DNA of 53,842 bases from Rhodanobacteraceae bacterium. Lineage in GTDB: Bacteria; Pseudomonadota; Gammaproteobacteria; Xanthomonadales; Rhodanobacteraceae. Shown piece by piece: positions 22,437 to 29,959 of the stretch; position 1 is the first letter of the stretch; each line of letters begins with the position of its first letter. A program made the position numbers and the translations under genes. The DNA lies in NCBI GenBank assembly GCA_004299705.1, contig SCQS01000069.1, forward strand, positions 1 through 53,842, given 5' to 3'. The notes under the pieces are model-generated. The model was not told the DNA's origin. It ran no database searches and was given only the letters and a program-made list of their open reading frames with translations.

Positions 22437-23468
22437 GTGGCCAGCGTTCTGTCGAATACCCGAGCCGGTGCATCCGCCGGCCCGGCGCGAGAGGCGCCCG
22501 TGATGGGCCGCTTGCCGCGCCATTTGTCCGGCCGGGAAATGGCGTTGTTCACGGGTGTCGGCCAACGCCTCGAACTGGGGTCGGGTCGCGCGGTGTTCCG
22601 GCGCGGCGAATACGGCCGCAGCATGTTCGTGATCGAATCCGGGCGCGTGCTGCTGGAATTCGCGGGCGACCTGCCCGACAAGCTGATCGGCCCCGACGAA
22701 TATTTCGGCGAACTGGCCCTGTTCGTGGGCAACCATGCCCGCTCGGGCAGCGCGCTGGCTTCCGAAGCCTGCGTCGTGTACGTGATCGAACCCGACGTGT
22801 TCGAGGAACTGTTGCGGCGCGAACCGCTGCAGATGGCGCAATTCATGCTGCGCTCGTTCACCTACCTGGTGGCCAGCGAACAGCAGTTGATCGCCAACTA
22901 CAAGCGCCGCAACGAAGACCTGATGCAGACGCTGGATTCGCTGCGCCAGACCCGCGACCAGTTGCAGCTGGCGCGGCGCCAGGTTTGCACCGACGACCTC
23001 ACCGGCCTCGCCAATCGGCGCGGCCTGTACCAGTTTCTCGAAAACGCGGCCGAGGTGCGCGACCGCAACCGCCAGTTCGGCCTGCTGCTGATCGACGTCG
23101 ACCACTTCAAGCAGATCAACGACCGCAGCGGTCACCTGGTCGGCGACGAAGTGCTGCGCGCGATCGCGTCCGAAGTCCAGGAAGCCGCGGGCGCAACCGA
23201 CCTGCCATGCCGCCTCGGCGGCGACGAATTCGCCTTGCTGAGCCAGGTGGGCGACCAGCGCGAGCTGACCGAGCGCGCCCTGCGCATCACCGAGGGCGTG
23301 CGCCAGCTGCGGTTCCCGAAATCCGCGCCGGAACTCACCGTGTCGGTCAGCGTCGGCGGCGGCCTGTGCCGCGACGACGACGAATGGTCGGTGTGGTACA
23401 GCGAAGCCGACTGCGCGCTGTACCACGTGAAGGGTTCAGGCGGCGACGGCGCGCACGTGATGAGTTGA
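22437..23468 (+). CDS. Cyclic-nucleotide-binding domain + GGDEF diguanylate cyclase
   Basis: 343 residues with two domains. An N-terminal cNMP-binding domain (about 30-150) has FRRGEYGRSMFVIESGRV and the phosphate-binding cassette YFGELALF with ARSGSALA, keeping the Glu and Arg that hold the cyclic phosphate. After a coiled-coil linker (about 155-180, RRNEDLMQTLDSLRQTRD), a GGDEF domain contains TDDLTGLANRRG, LLIDVDHFKQIND and an intact RLGGDEF, so it should make c-di-GMP. It starts at GTG with AGGGGG upstream. The next gene, 80 nt downstream, encodes a class III nucleotide cyclase, so this protein may read that enzyme's product (inference). Confidence 0.9.
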   Translation: MASVLSNTRAGASAGPAREAPVMGRLPRHLSGREMALFTGVGQRLELGSGRAVFRRGEYGRSMFVIESGRVLLEFAGDLPDKLIGPDEYFGELALFVGNHARSGSALASEACVVYVIEPDVFEELLRREPLQMAQFMLRSFTYLVASEQQLIANYKRRNEDLMQTLDSLRQTRDQLQLARRQVCTDDLTGLANRRGLYQFLENAAEVRDRNRQFGLLLIDVDHFKQINDRSGHLVGDEVLRAIASEVQEAAGATDLPCRLGGDEFALLSQVGDQRELTERALRITEGVRQLRFPKSAPELTVSVSVGGGLCRDDDEWSVWYSEADCALYHVKGSGGDGAHVMS

Positions 23469-23546
23469 GGAGTCGCGCGCAGGCGCGCTCCTACTGCAAG
23501 AACCAGCCTGCCGGCTGTAGGAGCCGGCCTGCCGGCGACAGGAGCC
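23469..23546. repeat. GTAGGAGC-type REP pair between the GGDEF and cyclase genes
   Basis: Two hairpins: GAG-TCGCGCGC-AGGCGCGCTC ending in CTAC (23491-23494), and a GTAGGAGCC (from 23517) with CGGCCTGCCGG palindrome. The closing AGGAGCC resembles the GTAGGAGC unit end and lies 5 nt before the cyclase ATG, so the repeat seems to supply its ribosome-binding site. A related pair is at 47275-47331. Confidence 0.75.
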
Positions 23547-23548
23547 CC

Positions 23549-26137
23549 ATGACCGCCGAAATCCGCCAGCTCGAAACCACCCCCGGTCCCGGCCGCATGG
23601 CCACCCCGCAACTGCGCACGCTGGTGGTCTGCGACATCGCCGATTCCACCGCACTGGTCGAGCGCATGGGCGACCAGAACGCCGCCAACATCATCCGCAA
23701 GCACGACCGCCTCGCGCGTGCGCTGATCGAGCAGCACAAGGGCCGCGAGATCGACAAGACCGACGGGTTTCTTTTGTTGTTCGACCGGCCCGTGCAGGCC
23801 GCGGCGTTCGCGCTGGATTACCAGCGCGGGCTGAAGCACATGTCCGCCGCCGAAGGCGTGGTGGTGCGCGCGCGGGTCGGCATCCACATGGGCGACGTGG
23901 TGATCTGGGAAAACGCGCCGGAAGACGTCGCGCGTGGCGCCAAGCCCATCGAGGTGGAAGGCCTGGTCAAACCCGTCGCCGCGCGCCTCGCGCAATTGGC
24001 GCGGCCCCAGCAAATCCTGATGTCGTCCGCTGCCGCCGCCATCGCGCACCGTGCCGAGGGCGAGCTGGGCGTGAAAGCGGCGGAACGCGTGCACTGGAAG
24101 GATCACGGCCGTTACACCTTCAAGGGCCTGCCGGAAGCGCTGGAAGTGGTCGAGGTGGGCGAGGACGACGTCGCGCCGTTGCACGCGCCGAAGTCCGGAC
24201 GCACCGCGAAGAAGATCCTGCCGTGGTGGCGGCGCCCGCTGACCCTGGCCGCCGAAGCCGCGGTGCTGGCGATCGGCGTCGGCGTCGGCCTGTGGTTCCT
24301 GCTGCAAAGCCCACCCACGCTGGCCTTCACCGCGCGCGACTGGGTGGTGGTGGGCAACGTGCACAACCTCACCGGCGACAGGGTGTTCGACCAGTCGGTC
24401 GATTCCGCGCTGCGCATCAGCCTGGAGCAGTCGCAGTACGTCAACGTGCTGCCGGAACTGTCGGTGCAGCAGACCCTGCAGCGGATGGAACTGAACCCGG
24501 ACAAGACCGACGTCAACCGCGCGATCGGCTCGCAGGTCGCGCTGCGCGACGGCGCGCGCGCCTTGATCCTGCCCACCGTCGCGGACGTCGGCGGCCGCGT
24601 GCGCGTCACCGCGGAAGTGGTCGATCCCAACACCCAGGCGACGGTGTATTCGGTGTCCGCCGATGGCTATGGCGCGCAATCGGTGCTGCCCTCGCTGGAC
24701 AGCGTCAGCAAGCAGTTGCGCGGCAAGCTGGGCGAGGCGCTGGCGATGGTGTCCAAGCAATCGTTGCCGCTGGCGCAGGTGGCGACACCAGACCTTAATG
24801 CCTTAAGGGCGTATTCGTTAGGAGAGCGGTTCTATAACCGTGCAGATCTGAAAAATGCTGAATCTTACTTCAAGGCGGCGCTGCTCATTGATCCGCACTT
24901 CGCACTGTCCCGTGTTTATTTGGCCGCAATCTATGAAGGGGAAGACCGACCCAGAAAGGCACAGCAGGAGATTTTGGCTGCACAAGCCGATCACAATCGA
25001 CTTTCGGCACGCGATGCACTGTACGTTGATGCGTGGGCTTCAAGTTATAGCATGCCTGGAAAGTCTCTGGCAAAGTGGAGGCTTTTGGCTACGGTGTATC
25101 CTGATTACTTTCCAGGGCTCGCCAATGGCGCTTACTTCATGTGGACGTACGGCAACCAGTTCAGAGCTGCTATTCCGTATCTTGAGCGGTCGGTATCGCC
25201 CAAAAATCCGCATCGTGCAACTAGCGAATATTTACTCGGGGCGCTTTATGTAGAAGCGGGGCGGTACACTGATGCCCTGCGTGTTTTCTCCAAGTCAGTT
25301 TCGGACGGTGCTCATTTTCAGAATGATTATTACGCGAGCGCATATGCTGCACAGCATAAATTCACAAGTGCAAGAACAATTCTCGATCGTGGCAAGGCGT
25401 CCGGCATAACGGATTTTGACCTCAAAGACGCTAGTACTCCTGTCGCAATGGCTGTGGACCAAGGGGACTGGCAAAAGGCCGAGAAATTGCTCAAGTCTGC
25501 GCAATCACGGGCGAAATTAGCTGGTTTTCGAGTTCTGAGTCGTTACGAAATCATGGGCCTGAGTCTACGTGCGCTTGATGGGACTTCTGCGAATCAGCAG
25601 ATAAGTGAACTGACTAACTATCTGGGGCTCGAAGAAAAGGTGCTTTCGAATACAAGTCAAATTGGCCGTCAGGAATTAAAATTTCAGATAGCGTTGATAG
25701 CCTACCTCGCTGCTCATGCCGGGGATGTAAAGCTCGCCACTGATGCGCTGAATCTTGTTCGGGCGAGGTCAGGAGAAGACACGCCTGTGTTGGATAACAT
25801 GCAAGGCGTCGCCAAAGCTGAGATTGAGCTAATGGCTGGGCATCCACTGGATGCAATTGCAACTCTTAGAGCTTTGATTAACGGCAGCGAATTGTTTATT
25901 ACCCACGTTGCGTTGATGGACGCCGAAGATGGAGCCGGTGATTATGCTGGTGCTCTTGCAGAGGCGCACTGGCTGTCTTCCCATCGCGGCAGAGCTTACA
26001 TGGAAAGTAATTCCAACCAGATACTCGCACCTTTTAATATTGCAGAATCTAATTTAGCGCTTTCGCGGGCGAAGAATTTTTCGAGCGATTTGCACGGAGT
26101 GCCGCCGCGAGAGGGGCGGTCAGGCGCATTTATGTAG
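23549..26137 (+). CDS. Class III nucleotide cyclase with TPR region (putative peptide modification system cyclase)
   Basis: 862 residues. The cyclase homology domain (about 20-200) has VVCDIADSTAL (metal Asp29), REIDKTDGFLLLF (Asp72, one residue shorter than the usual KTxGDG), RARVGIHMGDVV and VAARL (Arg146). By alignment the catalytic Asn position is Pro142 and the adenine-selecting Asp is Glu135, so activity or substrate may differ from standard adenylyl cyclases. One membrane helix follows (about 232-252, LTLAAEAAVLAIGVGVGLWF), then a FlgO/TolB-like domain (to about 410) and a C-terminal TPR-like helical region. The second half, from about 24786, is much poorer in G+C than the first. I place it in the NCBIfam-type family named putative peptide modification system cyclase because of the two following genes. 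Confidence 0.85.
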   Translation: MTAEIRQLETTPGPGRMATPQLRTLVVCDIADSTALVERMGDQNAANIIRKHDRLARALIEQHKGREIDKTDGFLLLFDRPVQAAAFALDYQRGLKHMSAAEGVVVRARVGIHMGDVVIWENAPEDVARGAKPIEVEGLVKPVAARLAQLARPQQILMSSAAAAIAHRAEGELGVKAAERVHWKDHGRYTFKGLPEALEVVEVGEDDVAPLHAPKSGRTAKKILPWWRRPLTLAAEAAVLAIGVGVGLWFLLQSPPTLAFTARDWVVVGNVHNLTGDRVFDQSVDSALRISLEQSQYVNVLPELSVQQTLQRMELNPDKTDVNRAIGSQVALRDGARALILPTVADVGGRVRVTAEVVDPNTQATVYSVSADGYGAQSVLPSLDSVSKQLRGKLGEALAMVSKQSLPLAQVATPDLNALRAYSLGERFYNRADLKNAESYFKAALLIDPHFALSRVYLAAIYEGEDRPRKAQQEILAAQADHNRLSARDALYVDAWASSYSMPGKSLAKWRLLATVYPDYFPGLANGAYFMWTYGNQFRAAIPYLERSVSPKNPHRATSEYLLGALYVEAGRYTDALRVFSKSVSDGAHFQNDYYASAYAAQHKFTSARTILDRGKASGITDFDLKDASTPVAMAVDQGDWQKAEKLLKSAQSRAKLAGFRVLSRYEIMGLSLRALDGTSANQQISELTNYLGLEEKVLSNTSQIGRQELKFQIALIAYLAAHAGDVKLATDALNLVRARSGEDTPVLDNMQGVAKAEIELMAGHPLDAIATLRALINGSELFITHVALMDAEDGAGDYAGALAEAHWLSSHRGRAYMESNSNQILAPFNIAESNLALSRAKNFSSDLHGVPPREGRSGAFM

Positions 26138-26198
26138 AGTATTACGCGGAGTGGTGGGTCGAAGCCCGCTCAGCATTGACGAATATGCGGTGAAGTGT

Positions 26199-26480
26199 TT
26201 AGCTCATGTCTATCTTGAGCATGGGTGGGATCATACCTACACATGAGTCGATGGCGTTATTTGCCAGCTCGGCATGGGCCCGCACGAAAAGATCTTTCAT
26301 GGCCAACGTTGTTGGAGCCAGGCATGATGCCTTGAGATTCACGATGGTTTCGTGCGGCACGCCCAACTCGGCCAGCGCAGCGGCGGGTTTTTGCTCGTAA
26401 CGGCTTCGGAAAGCATCATCGGTGGCAAGCTTGTGCAACAGGGCGAGCGAATGTTCGTGCGACAACTTCGAATCGGTCAT
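26199..26480 (-). CDS. Putative RiPP precursor with NHLP/Nif11-like leader
   Basis: A 93-residue peptide. The leader-like part reads LALLHKLATDDAFRSRYEQ, then PAAALAELGVPHETI, which fits NHLP (nitrile hydratase-like leader) patterns. It is followed by ASCLAPTTLAMKDLF and a C-terminal candidate core around NNAIDSCVGMIPPMLK, with Cys53 and Cys80 the only cysteines. The start at 26480 has AGGGG about 6-10 nt upstream, and a longer frame has no support. It matches my memory of the NCBIfam family putative modified peptide, found in Xanthomonadales. It is convergent with the cyclase gene and divergent from the dehydrogenase gene. Base composition is low like the cyclase 3' half (29 G+C of 60 in 26211-26270). 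Confidence 0.75.
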   Translation of the reverse strand: MTDSKLSHEHSLALLHKLATDDAFRSRYEQKPAAALAELGVPHETIVNLKASCLAPTTLAMKDLFVRAHAELANNAIDSCVGMIPPMLKIDMS

Positions 26481-26568
26481 GGGGTTCCCCTGAACAGTGG
26501 TGGTGGATGGCACAATGCAGGAATCGCGCCAACCATCGCGGCGCAAGTAGAGTGGGGAACCGGGGTTT

Positions 26569-27744
26569 ATGCAAGTGCGCCGTTGCGCGTTGGTGCTGGT
26601 CGAACCGCGCGAAGCCATCGACTTCGACCTGACCGAACTCGCATCGGGCGAAACCGGCGTGCGCGAGCGCCTTGGCTGGGTCGCCTTGGCTGCGCACCGC
26701 GACGAGGACATCCCGCTGACTGCGGCGGAAGTCGCGGCGCTGGGTGCATTGTCGCCTGGTCACTGGCGATCGCTGGATGAGTTGTCGCAGCGGCATCCGC
26801 GCGCGGTACTGGAAGCCCTGATGGCGAAAGGCCTGCTGATCGCGCAGGAACCGGTCGACGAAACCAGTCTGCAGTTTGCACGAGCCGATGATGCGGTACG
26901 TGCGGTGCACTGGCGCGGACTGCCCGCGGTCATGCACCGCCACACCCGCTGGCGCGACGTGGATTCGGAGGCAGTCGAGCGGCTGTTTGCCGAAGCCAGT
27001 TCGGAAACCTTGCTGGAACGGCTGGGTCCGGCGCAGCCGGTGGTGCCGGAACGTGTCGAGGCGGCGCGGCGCATGCCGCTGCCGCGCCCTGCGACGTCAG
27101 CATTGGACGCGTTGATGGAGCGGCGCGTGACCTGCCGCAACTACGAATCCGCACCGTTGTCGTTTGATGCGTTTTCCGCGGTGTTGTATCGCGCCTTCGG
27201 CGCGCGCGCGGTGTGTGATTACGCGCCCGGAGTGCAGTTGTTGAAGAAAGGCGTGCCTTCGGCGGGCGGCCTGCACGCGGTCGAGGCGTACCTGCTGGTG
27301 CGCAACGTCGAGGGCGTTCCGGCGGGTTTGTACCACTATCACGCGGTCGCGCACGCGCTGGAACCGCTGCGTCCACTGGATGCGGATGCGGCCGCGTCGC
27401 TGGCGCGCCGCTTCGTCGCGGCGCAGGCGTACTACGCCGGGGCGCCGCTGCAGATCGCGCTGGTGGCGCGCTTCGAACGCAACTTCTGGAAATACCGCAA
27501 CCACGCCAAGGCGTACCGCGCGGTGATCCTGGACGCCGGGCACCTGTCGCAGGCGATGTATCTGGCCGCCACCGAGTTGAACCTCGGCGCCTTCATCACC
27601 GCCGCGATCAACGAAGTCGAAATCGAGCAGGCGTTCGGGCTGGAACCGATGGCCGAAGGGCCGTTGGCCGTGTGCGGGTTCGGCGTACGGGCGAAGGAGC
27701 GTACAACCGTCGAATTCGATCCCGCGCACAAGGTGTGGGTGTAG
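26569..27744 (+). CDS. SagB-like FMN dehydrogenase (putative peptide maturation dehydrogenase)
   Basis: 391 residues. The N-terminal half contains a winged-helix-like stretch (about 48-95, LTAAEVAALGALSPGHW..LMAKGLLI) that could bind the peptide leader. The C-terminal half (about 175-375) is a nitroreductase/SagB-type domain with RRVTCRNY, SAGGLHAVEAYLLV, and FWKYRNHAKAYR (Lys308-Tyr309, the position of the catalytic Lys-Tyr of azoline dehydrogenases), followed by LDAGHLSQAMYLAATELNLG. Azoline dehydrogenases oxidise heterocycles formed by YcaO enzymes, but no YcaO gene is present here. The stop codon TAG is the first part of a REP element. G+C is high (45 of 60 in 27361-27420). Confidence 0.85.
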   Translation: MQVRRCALVLVEPREAIDFDLTELASGETGVRERLGWVALAAHRDEDIPLTAAEVAALGALSPGHWRSLDELSQRHPRAVLEALMAKGLLIAQEPVDETSLQFARADDAVRAVHWRGLPAVMHRHTRWRDVDSEAVERLFAEASSETLLERLGPAQPVVPERVEAARRMPLPRPATSALDALMERRVTCRNYESAPLSFDAFSAVLYRAFGARAVCDYAPGVQLLKKGVPSAGGLHAVEAYLLVRNVEGVPAGLYHYHAVAHALEPLRPLDADAAASLARRFVAAQAYYAGAPLQIALVARFERNFWKYRNHAKAYRAVILDAGHLSQAMYLAATELNLGAFITAAINEVEIEQAFGLEPMAEGPLAVCGFGVRAKERTTVEFDPAHKVWV

Positions 27745-27811
27745 GGCGGGAGAAGCGAAGCGAATCCCGCCAATCCCGCCGGAAATCATGGCGGGTTGTC
27801 ACCCGCCCTAC
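27741..27811. repeat. GTAG-type REP pair, left of the RAYT gene
   Basis: GTAGGGCGGGAG ... GCGGGTTGTCACCCGCCCTAC with inner CCCGCC/GGCGGG stems. Its TAG (27742-27744) is the stop codon of the dehydrogenase gene. Confidence 0.85.
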
Positions 27812-27831: not shown

Positions 27832-28355
27832 TCATTCGAAATCCATCGCACGCACGTCATCACTTGCGCCCCAATCAGGCGCGTACATTTCACGTTCCAC
27901 GCAACCATGGAACGAGGAAAACGGCCAATCGGCGACGCGTCGCACGTGACCATGCTTGACGGGGTTGTAGTGGATGTAATCCATGTGGCGCGCGAAATCT
28001 TCATCGTCGCGGATGGCTCCCAGAAGCGTCGCTGCCATATGCCGCGTTCGCCTTTCGTGGTGCGGCGCGTCGACAGTTTTTCGCCTTTCGGCAGGGAACG
28101 GGAAAACCGCGATTTGATGGCGTGCCAGCGTCGGGAGAAATCCGCGTCGCCATCCGGCAACGTCCAAATGCAATGGATGTGGTCGGGAAGGATTACCACC
28201 GCGTCGGTCGTGAATGGATGTTGGGTACGTACCGATGAGAAGGCGCTGCGCAAGGCATTGATGTGTTCGGTCAACAACCGGCGTTTCCGTTCCAGCAAGG
28301 CGACAGTGAAGAAGAAGGTGCCACCCGGGACGCGTGCGCGTATGTATCGAGGCAT
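27832..28355 (-). pseudogene. REP-associated tyrosine transposase (RAYT), frameshifted
   Basis: An IS200-like Y1 transposase domain protein of the RAYT type, which moves REP elements. The first frame (from 28355) gives MPRYIRARVPGGTFFFTVAL, then VVILPDHIHCIWTLPDGD (HUH-type metal motif HIH) and GIWQRRFWE. The second frame then gives AIRDDEDFARHMDYIHYNPVKHG with the catalytic Tyr region and WPFSSFHGCV. The shift lies near 28008-28014, where 1 or 4 bases seem to be missing compared with the usual WEHAIRD. The gene is flanked closely on both sides by GTAG REP pairs, the classic REP/RAYT arrangement. Probably inactive, unless a frameshift is programmed. Confidence 0.85.
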
Positions 28356-28374
28356 GATGATGACTTTTGCAGGA

Positions 28375-28451
28375 GTAGGGCGGGAGAAGCGCAGCGCATC
28401 CCGCCACACAATCCGGCGGGATTCGCCGCTGCGCGGCTTCTCCCGCCCTAC
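28375..28451. repeat. GTAG-type REP pair, right of the RAYT gene
   Basis: GTAGGGCGGGAGAAGCGC ... GCGGCTTCTCCCGCCCTAC, with a central GGCGGGATTCGCC palindrome. The terminal CTAC (28448-28451) contains the stop codon TAG of comM on the other strand. Confidence 0.85.
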
Positions 28452-29959
28452 GGGTGTTGTGCGTGCGCGCGGCGGTACTGCACCGCCTCGGCCAGGTGTT
28501 CGCGCGCGATGCGTTCGCTGCCGGCGAGATCGGCGATGCTGCGGGCGACGCGCAGCACGCGGTGGTAGGCGCGCGCGGACAACGACAGTTTTTCCATCGC
28601 GCGTTCCAGCAGGCTGCGTTCCGCGTCGCCCAGCGCACAATCGCGTTCGAGTTCGCGCACTGCGAGCGTGGCGTTGGGTTTGCCGGCGCGTTGCATGGCG
28701 ATGGTGCGTGCGGCGATCACGCGCGCGCGTACCGTGGCGGAATCCTCGTCGTGCACGCCGCGCCGTGCGTTGAGTTCCGTCAACGGCATGCGCGGCACAT
28801 CGCTGAGGATGTCGATGCGATCCAGCAACGGCCCCGAGATGCGGCCGCGATAGCGCGCGATCGCGTCGGGCGTGCAACGGCAACGGCCGTTCGCATCGCC
28901 GGCGTAACCGCAGGGGCATGGGTTCATGGCCGCGACCAACTGGAAACGTGCCGGGAATTCGGCTTGTCGCGCCGCACGTGAAATGGTGATGCGGCCGGAT
29001 TCCATGGGTTCGCGCAGTACCTCCAGCACGCGGCGGTCGAATTCGGGCAACTCGTCGAGGAACAACACGCCGTTATGGGCCAATGAAACCTCGCCCGGCC
29101 GCGGATGCGAGCCACCGCCGACCAGCGCGACGCCGGAAGCGGTGTGGTGTGGCGCGCGATACGGGCGCTGGCGCCAATGCTTGACATCGAACGCTTCGTT
29201 GGCGACCGAGCGCACCGCGCAGGCCTCGATCGCTTCGGCGTCGGTCATCGGCGGCAGGATGCCGGGCAGGCGCTGGGCCAGCATGGATTTGCCGGTGCCC
29301 GGCGGGCCGATCATCAACAGGTGATGGCCTCCGGCCGCGGCGATTTCAAGCGCACGACGCGCCTGCAATTGCCCCCGCACGTCGGCGAGGTCGGGCAACG
29401 CGCTGATGGCTTCCCGCACGGCTTCCGCATCGGGCGCCGGCAATGTTTCCATGCCGCGCAAGTGCGCGCATACATCGGCCAGTGTGCGCGCGACACGCAC
29501 TTCCACGTCGCCCAGCAGGGCGGCTTCGTGCGCGTTGCCGGAAGGCACGATCACGCAGCGTTTGCCGTGGCGGGCGCGTAGCAGCGCCGGCAACACACCG
29601 GGCACCGGCCGCAGTTCGCCCGACAGCGCGAGTTCGCCCAGGAATTCGCAGCCTTGCAAGGCTTCGCGTGGCACCTGGCCGCCGGCGGCCAAGATTCCGA
29701 GTGCGATCGCCAGGTCGAAGCGGCCGCCGTCCTTGGGCAACTCGGCGGGCGCCAGGTTGACCGTGACGCGTCGCGCCGGATATTCAAACTGGGTGTTCTG
29801 GATCGCCACGCGCACGCGGTCGCGCGCTTCGCGTACCGCGGCTTCGGGCAGGCCGACGATGGAGGTGCCGGGCAGGCCGCCGGAAAGGTGCACTTCCACG
29901 GTCACCAGCGGTGCGGCGACGCCTTCGGATGCGCGTGTCAGGGCAACCGCGAGGGACAT
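28448..29959 (-). CDS. comM: ComM/YifB-like Mg-chelatase-family AAA+ helicase
   Basis: 503 residues. In Vibrio and Acinetobacter ComM is a hexameric helicase that extends branch migration during natural transformation. The N-terminal ChlI-like domain has VHLSGGLPGTSIVGLPEAAVREARDRVR. The AAA+ core has Walker A GPPGTGKS, the Walker B region VLFLDELPEF, and AMNPCPCGY. The C-terminal Mg_chelatase_C domain ends near YRRAHAQHP. The stop codon is the TAG of a flanking REP element. It is a common chromosomal gene and does not by itself prove competence. Confidence 0.93.
   Translation of the reverse strand: MSLAVALTRASEGVAAPLVTVEVHLSGGLPGTSIVGLPEAAVREARDRVRVAIQNTQFEYPARRVTVNLAPAELPKDGGRFDLAIALGILAAGGQVPREALQGCEFLGELALSGELRPVPGVLPALLRARHGKRCVIVPSGNAHEAALLGDVEVRVARTLADVCAHLRGMETLPAPDAEAVREAISALPDLADVRGQLQARRALEIAAAGGHHLLMIGPPGTGKSMLAQRLPGILPPMTDAEAIEACAVRSVANEAFDVKHWRQRPYRAPHHTASGVALVGGGSHPRPGEVSLAHNGVLFLDELPEFDRRVLEVLREPMESGRITISRAARQAEFPARFQLVAAMNPCPCGYAGDANGRCRCTPDAIARYRGRISGPLLDRIDILSDVPRMPLTELNARRGVHDEDSATVRARVIAARTIAMQRAGKPNATLAVRELERDCALGDAERSLLERAMEKLSLSARAYHRVLRVARSIADLAGSERIAREHLAEAVQYRRAHAQHP

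Follow-up and report, generated by a model that had tools for sequence, protein, structure and literature searches.

The closest described relative of the locus studied here is the gene pair XC_0249/XC_0250 of Xanthomonas, in which the gene of a cyclic nucleotide monophosphate (cNMP)-binding GGDEF protein lies beside that of a class III cyclase with C-terminal tetratricopeptide repeats (TPRs, residues 413-625). XC_0250 makes cyclic guanosine monophosphate (cGMP), while XC_0249 binds cGMP and then makes more cyclic dimeric guanosine monophosphate (c-di-GMP), and full biofilm formation and virulence require both (PMC3770947). The TPR domain of XC_0250 is described there as being of uncharacterised function, and again in a 2019 review (PMC8042644). 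The main text of the former paper reports no peptide, dehydrogenase or exchange, and the words "peptide" and "transmembrane" are absent from it. The stretch analysed here (the window) is contig SCQS01000069.1 of a Rhodanobacteraceae bacterium (assembly GCA_004299705.1), 53,842 nucleotides long and one contig of a 3.6-Mb genome that is 99.99% complete. Its cyclase gene (23549..26137, forward strand, 862 amino acids) ends in a hypervariable TPR half. Together with a small convergent precursor-peptide gene (26199..26480, reverse strand, 93 amino acids), this half constitutes an exchangeable cassette. A gene for a cNMP-binding GGDEF protein (22437..23468, forward strand, 343 amino acids; PF00027 at 52 bits, PF00990 at 125.7 bits) is located 80 bp upstream of the cyclase gene. 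The locus matches the XC_0249/XC_0250 arrangement, and the architecture, this neighbour and the X. arboricola loci make orthology of both genes likely.

Two further systems resemble this locus. In ComQXPA of Bacillus, the C-terminus of the precursor peptide is likewise the most variable part (PMC4008528, PMC4408185). As here, one half of the ComQXPA receptor (the peptide-binding one) is variable, the cytoplasmic half is conserved, and the types differ within one locus. However, that receptor is a histidine kinase with a multi-helix N-terminal sensor, whereas the protein described here is a predicted guanylate cyclase with a C-terminal TPR half. The ComQXPA set of histidine kinase, isoprenyl transferase and response regulator is not found at this locus, and the modifier adjoining the peptide gene is a nitroreductase-fold enzyme. 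By this analogy, the locus would function as pherotype systems do, ComQXPA being one of them, but it does not belong to the ComQXPA family. With Rhs displacement, it shares a G+C-rich core, an A+T-rich variable tip, decoupled histories of the two and a small neighbouring gene; in one Rhs example, core and tip have a G+C content of 67.7% and 46.4%, respectively (PMC2935791). Rhs tips are non-homologous and leave silent arrays according to the same paper, whereas the variable half of the cyclase can be aligned, and the loci read contain two copies devoid of the catalytic domain but show no tip arrays.

The original prediction, made from the letters of the window, held that the TPR half (residues 413-862, 24785..26134) and the peptide were swapped jointly, with conserved cyclase sequence on one side and conserved dehydrogenase sequence on the other, and tests independent of base composition bear this out. 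Compared in 30-codon segments with eight orthologues of the same genus, the window mostly shows 75-100% identity as far as codon 420 and ~20-85% identity after it. At the DNA level, homology with genome G011 covers 23542-24826 (89.5%) and 26475-27739 (84.0%), with none in between. It resumes where the peptide gene starts (26475), and the gap corresponds to the block that had been predicted (24786-26480). In two other genomes of the genus, G015 and G004 (loci L059 and L061), identity to the window breaks earlier, near codon 271. They represent a second cassette type within the genus (a type A/B switch), in a comparison for which some peptides may have been wrongly cut. The dehydrogenase of L059 is replaced too: G015 and the window share 93% identity in the catalytic domain, 90% and 90% in the flanks, 31% in the TPR half and 49% in the dehydrogenase. 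Loci L084 and L096 are 96% identical in the first half, 56% in the TPR half, 63% in the adjacent peptide, 90% in a second peptide and 97% in the dehydrogenase, and L040 (Mizugakiibacter sediminis) and L047 show values of 93% (first half), 46% (TPR half), 58% (peptide) and 97% (dehydrogenase). Two tandem copies in genome G025 are 100% identical in DNA over nine successive 30-codon segments (270 codons) and fall to 20-36% amino-acid identity in most later segments, with differing peptides; G025 is a metagenome bin, and its tandem mosaic could be an assembly fault. In the comparisons with the window, the allele that moved may be its own or that of the comparators.

Silent sites display the same boundary. 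At four-fold sites with an unchanged amino acid, divergence from the window is 0.20-0.34 in the catalytic domain and 0.09-0.33 in codons 231-412 (10 comparisons each). For the TPR half, it amounts to 0.62-0.81 (10 comparisons), and for the dehydrogenase to 0.26-0.47 (nine comparisons). Near-saturation is thus confined to the TPR half, the silent divergence of which exceeds that of the first half in 36 of 36 pairs from nine genomes, so that selection at the protein level alone is insufficient as an explanation. The conserved alpha/beta domain in front of the junction (residues 264-403, 24338..24757) would act as the recombination anchor: in 15 of 15 pairs, codons 271-412 show less silent divergence than codons 1-230, which is what the entry of recombination tracts at this point would produce. 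The six genomes of this comparison were picked after the silent-site result, and taken singly, 6 of the 15 pairs have a one-sided p below 0.05. No match of the TPR half, which would point to a mobile carrier, was found in plasmid or phage collections. A scan of viral contigs with an alignment of the catalytic half yielded 18 loci, with matches confined to query residues 14-276 at 32-43% identity.

The TPR half and the peptide vary together across orthologous loci while the catalytic half stays conserved, as had been expected. The comparison covered 104 cyclase units: after removal of three duplicates, the window's family contributed 67 and the named loci L139-L178 another 37. Of these units, 101 have an adjacent convergent peptide gene, across families of the order and at a median stop-to-stop distance of -4 bp; the three units lacking it are the divergent cyclases L068, L070 and L071. 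The peptide consists of a conserved leader and a variable C-terminal part of 40 residues, with a mean pairwise identity per block of 0.72-0.95 in residues 1-50 and 0.42-0.59 beyond. Among pairs with first halves at least 80, 85 and 90% identical (n = 277, 121 and 47), the TPR half and the peptide correlate with partial rank coefficients of 0.75, 0.80 and 0.78 once the first half is taken into account. Shuffling peptides within clusters gives means of 0.25, 0.34 and 0.35, and the observed value was reached in 0 of 2000 permutations at each threshold. In another set of permutations, for which some peptides may have been wrongly cut (as happened for L093 in a superseded set), the counts were 2 of 2000 for all 51 rows, 187 for the window's genus, and 0, 76, 106 and 248 for genera g3, g4, g24 and g25, respectively. 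The dehydrogenase, which 87 of 101 units encode downstream in the same orientation, served as the control. With it, the TPR-peptide partial correlation is 0.55, 0.65 and 0.60 at the three thresholds, and the TPR-dehydrogenase correlation is 0.51, 0.16 and 0.15.

Separate phylogenies of the parts are incongruent, as foreseen, with the reservation that two of the cross-checks hold one way only. In a 64-row tree of the first half, the genera are almost intact (9 label changes, the minimum possible being 8), while the TPR-half tree has 16 label changes and tip branches five times longer (median 0.43 versus 0.083). A TPR tree constrained to keep the window's genus as one group is rejected (p 3e-5), as are the corresponding constraints for g3 (0.001) and g24 (2e-6). 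Approximately unbiased (AU) tests were made on 11 taxa, nine genomes of the window's genus and two outgroups. The peptide data are compatible with the TPR-half tree (p 0.084), and the trees of the catalytic half (0.0012) and the dehydrogenase (0.0007) are rejected. With the dehydrogenase data, the catalytic-half tree is not rejected (0.077), unlike the TPR-half (0.0025) and peptide (0.016) trees. The catalytic-half data reject the TPR, dehydrogenase and peptide trees, and the TPR-half data reject all three other trees. G011 falls outside the other eight members of the genus in the 11-taxon TPR tree (support 100; 97 for the peptide) and joins its genus in the 64-row TPR tree (support 94, not starred).

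The block had originally been recognised by its base composition. The four G+C counts given for it are exact (45 of 60 bases in the cyclase half, 24 in the TPR half, 29 in the peptide gene and 45 in the dehydrogenase), the reading frame is continuous across the break, and the break placed near 24786 is real. The maximum-likelihood change-point lies at codon 412 (position 24785), where the third-position GC content (GC3) falls from 0.90 to 0.48 with a log-likelihood gain of 96.6; on total G+C, it lies at 24794, with 24734-24829 within 3 log-likelihood units. As the drop sits in third positions, amino-acid composition alone does not explain it. The block 24786-26480 has a G+C content of 0.513, compared with a mean of 0.658 (sd 0.019, minimum 0.604) in 955 overlapping segments of the same length elsewhere in the contig. 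The break was also said to extend through the peptide gene, and the low G+C content there is confirmed, although not a sharp right edge: this edge is gradual and lies in or slightly past the peptide gene (best position 26350, with 26260-26645 within 3 units). The peptide gene itself is intermediate, with a GC3 of 0.72 in residues 1-50 and 0.60 in residues 51-93. Since the orthologues examined have the same fused architecture, a chimeric contig is unlikely.

The description of the TPR half and peptide as a foreign block stands as far as exchange is concerned, but the argument from composition is weaker. GC3 is lower in the TPR half in 101 of the 104 units (median difference 0.11), the step of 0.43 in the window being the second largest among them, and recent foreign import was rejected as its general cause. 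On inspection, Lysobacter-type high-GC genes account for two of the three exceptions. The swapped Lysobacter pair L140/L152 is 95.6% identical in the catalytic half and 40.7% in the TPR half and has no step (GC3 0.91/0.91 and 0.88/0.88). A shared step and a step-free swapped pair make composition and exchange separable. The composition step is a lineage property and by itself no mark of a recent foreign block here. The original prediction had opposed exchange to an old lineage property, for which orthologues would have the same step and congruent trees; the step is shared, but the trees are incongruent. An abrupt composition step can therefore be old and shared even where a segment has truly been exchanged.

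The predicted structure of the cyclase protein (mean pLDDT, predicted local distance difference test, of 87.7) is made of a conserved class III nucleotidyl cyclase catalytic domain (residues 1-230, 23549..24238), a single membrane helix (residues 230-252, 24236..24304), the alpha/beta domain up to ~403, a flexible linker and a TPR superhelix from residue 416. The linker has a pLDDT under 50 at residues 397-408, and as the TPR helices start at 416, the break coincides with a domain boundary. The membrane helix has a hydropathy of 2.03, with no segment above 1.6 outside the helix region, and is flanked by six lysine or arginine residues before it and one after it. This predicts the positive side to be inside and the TPR half to be periplasmic; the exchanged half is thus probably outside the inner membrane. 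The variable TPR half keeps one fold and an alignable sequence throughout. As for the processing of the peptide, no YcaO match (PF02624) was found in the 99.99% complete source genome, making classical azole chemistry, in which SagB works with YcaO, unlikely. This genome has one C39 peptidase match and one TIGR04509 peptide.

The cyclase, peptide and dehydrogenase genes correspond to an NCBIfam trio that is known by computation. All three proteins pass the curated cut-offs: the cyclase scores 851.3 bits over residues 19-837 against TIGR04510 (mod_pep_cyc; cut-off 400), the peptide 56.7 bits against TIGR04509 (NHLP-related RiPP peptide; cut-off 34) and the SagB-type dehydrogenase (26569..27744, forward strand, 391 amino acids), the resident flank in type A exchanges, 474.9 bits against TIGR04511 (putative peptide maturation dehydrogenase; cut-off 240). 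The TIGR04510 cut-off is passed in 57 of 233 genomes of the family and in 121 of 398 genomes in a sample of the order. A search of open-licence papers returned none naming the three families, none with the domain combinations tried and none tying a peptide pheromone and a precursor peptide to a guanylate cyclase in Xanthomonas.

Several loci deviate from this simple layout. Two or three related peptide genes are located between cyclase and dehydrogenase or beyond in L047, L048, L084, L096, L156, L157 and L178. In L189 (6666-8591) and L190 (6582-8360), a second cyclase copy follows the dehydrogenase. Its catalytic domain is missing (profile match 206/208-810), but membrane helix, conserved domain and TPR half are all retained. 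The truncated copies of L189 and L190 could be decoy receptors or displaced cassettes. The sister locus L191 encodes two cyclases, both of them full. Next to the locus of the window, and also near many related loci, lies a comM/yifB-like Mg-chelatase family gene (28448-29959). ComM has a role in natural transformation, by which cassettes could be exchanged. Perfect inverted repeats of 16 nucleotides (27741-27756 / 28436-28451, also 28375-28390) surround an open reading frame (27832-28638, reverse strand) that has no Pfam match and by eye resembles a REP (repetitive extragenic palindromic)-associated transposase.

The output of the locus can be predicted from its upstream neighbour. Of the 96 units for which at least 1.5 kb of upstream sequence is available, 79 have a cNMP-GGDEF homologue upstream in the same orientation, and 17 do not. 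The cGMP-contact positions F73, E90, H98 and E146 of XC_0249 are kept in 79 of 79 aligned upstream proteins, the window included, while the N145 position is N in 31, S in 46 (among them the window), R in one and G in one. The Xanthomonas loci in the set read F, E, H, N and E, as published. By orthology, we infer that the output is cGMP and then c-di-GMP.

We propose a guanylate cyclase whose TPR half is a periplasmic receptor with the peptide as its cognate ligand, and give this explanation, with the rest of its chain, a probability of roughly 60%. The cyclase would be a membrane protein that crosses the inner membrane once, its catalytic domain lying in the cytoplasm and the TPR superhelix, which follows a conserved domain, in the periplasm. 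The convergent gene would yield a precursor peptide, probably altered by the SagB-type dehydrogenase and exported, and the mature peptide would bind the TPR half and control cGMP synthesis. The cGMP would act on the cNMP-GGDEF protein encoded upstream, leading to c-di-GMP. TPR half and peptide would diversify jointly and be swapped as one unit by homologous recombination anchored in the conserved flanks, that is, the membrane-proximal domain of the cyclase on one side and the peptide leader and dehydrogenase on the other. The result would be pherotype-like types, with the block as a receptor-ligand specificity cassette.

Several observations weigh against this proposal. The isolated cyclase domain of XC_0250 restored biofilm formation in the absence of the TPR part (PMC3770947); the latter is thus not essential for that output, which argues against a simple on-switch. 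The structure gives no support for a hypervariable ligand groove: the A helices, by which a TPR groove is usually lined, are no more variable than the B helices (mean identity 0.58 versus 0.50 in the genus, 0.31 versus 0.26 in all). No exporter or protease gene lies beside the peptide gene, and the sole C39 peptidase gene is elsewhere in the genome. In the AU tests, the TPR-half data reject the peptide tree (5e-5), and the catalytic-half data reject the dehydrogenase tree (7e-6). At the 80% threshold, the dehydrogenase tracks the TPR half nearly as strongly as the peptide does (0.51 versus 0.55), which is expected from the type A/B switch in G015. In L040 and L047, the second peptide has diverged as well (61%), so a tract can extend to it. 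Finally, the peptide gene adjoins the TPR half, and linkage alone would carry both together.

This last point is the basis of the main rival explanation, in which hypervariability is linked by proximity only, the TPR half binding something else and the peptide having another role. With convergent genes and a median stop-to-stop distance of -4 bp, a tract replacing one of them tends to take the other. In several close pairs, however, the tract ends at or near the peptide and leaves the next gene unaffected, and if no functional tie existed, it would be difficult to account for a convergent peptide beside the cyclase in 101 of 104 units across families; we regard mere linkage as unlikely, although it has to be taken seriously. 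Exchange itself is hardly in doubt. Rapid evolution without exchange, the step being an ancient feature of the gene, would agree with the presence of this step in 101 of 104 units and with the grouping of the window's TPR half with its genus, but it is very improbable given that silent saturation is restricted to the TPR half and its silent excess found in 36 of 36 pairs, that the trees are incongruent, and that G025 has a mosaic and G015 and G004 a type switch. Congruent trees and equal silent divergence across the junction were looked for, and neither was found.

A role of the TPR half as a modification scaffold, recognising the precursor and aiding the dehydrogenase, is suggested by the NCBIfam name "putative peptide modification system cyclase", by the occurrence of the three genes as a family trio and by the co-oriented dehydrogenase gene that follows in 87 of 101 units. 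Yet the TPR half is predicted to be periplasmic (one helix, the catalytic half being on its positive side) and would be separated from a cytoplasmic dehydrogenase. In type A exchanges, the dehydrogenase does not track the TPR half. While the family names propose peptide modification, the cNMP-GGDEF neighbour and the published activity of the Xanthomonas pathway point to second-messenger signalling, and the neighbour and the mosaic structure to signalling between ligand and receptor; a scaffold appears improbable. Less probable still is a polymorphic toxin/immunity or kin-discrimination cassette of the Rhs kind, in which the peptide would be antagonistic and sensed or neutralised by the TPR half. 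Its layout would fit, with a conserved G+C-rich core, a variable A+T-rich tip and a small neighbouring gene, as would the extra peptides at some loci and the two loci with a copy lacking the catalytic domain. The conserved part is, however, a cyclase with a published second-messenger role instead of a delivery scaffold, and the variable part keeps one fold and remains alignable throughout.

With the peptide as ligand of the TPR half, the exchange pattern would add a missing element to the Xanthomonas cGMP pathway, of which the enzyme and the effector are known: it names the adjacent peptide as a candidate input. In its broadest form, this would be a widespread Gram-negative peptide pheromone system with a guanylate cyclase as receptor, its cassettes traded across Rhodanobacteraceae and Lysobacteraceae as private channels leading to cGMP and on to c-di-GMP, a generalisation to which we assign even odds. 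If true, polymorphic peptide signalling of the ComX type would also exist in Gram-negative bacteria, with a cyclase as the receptor.

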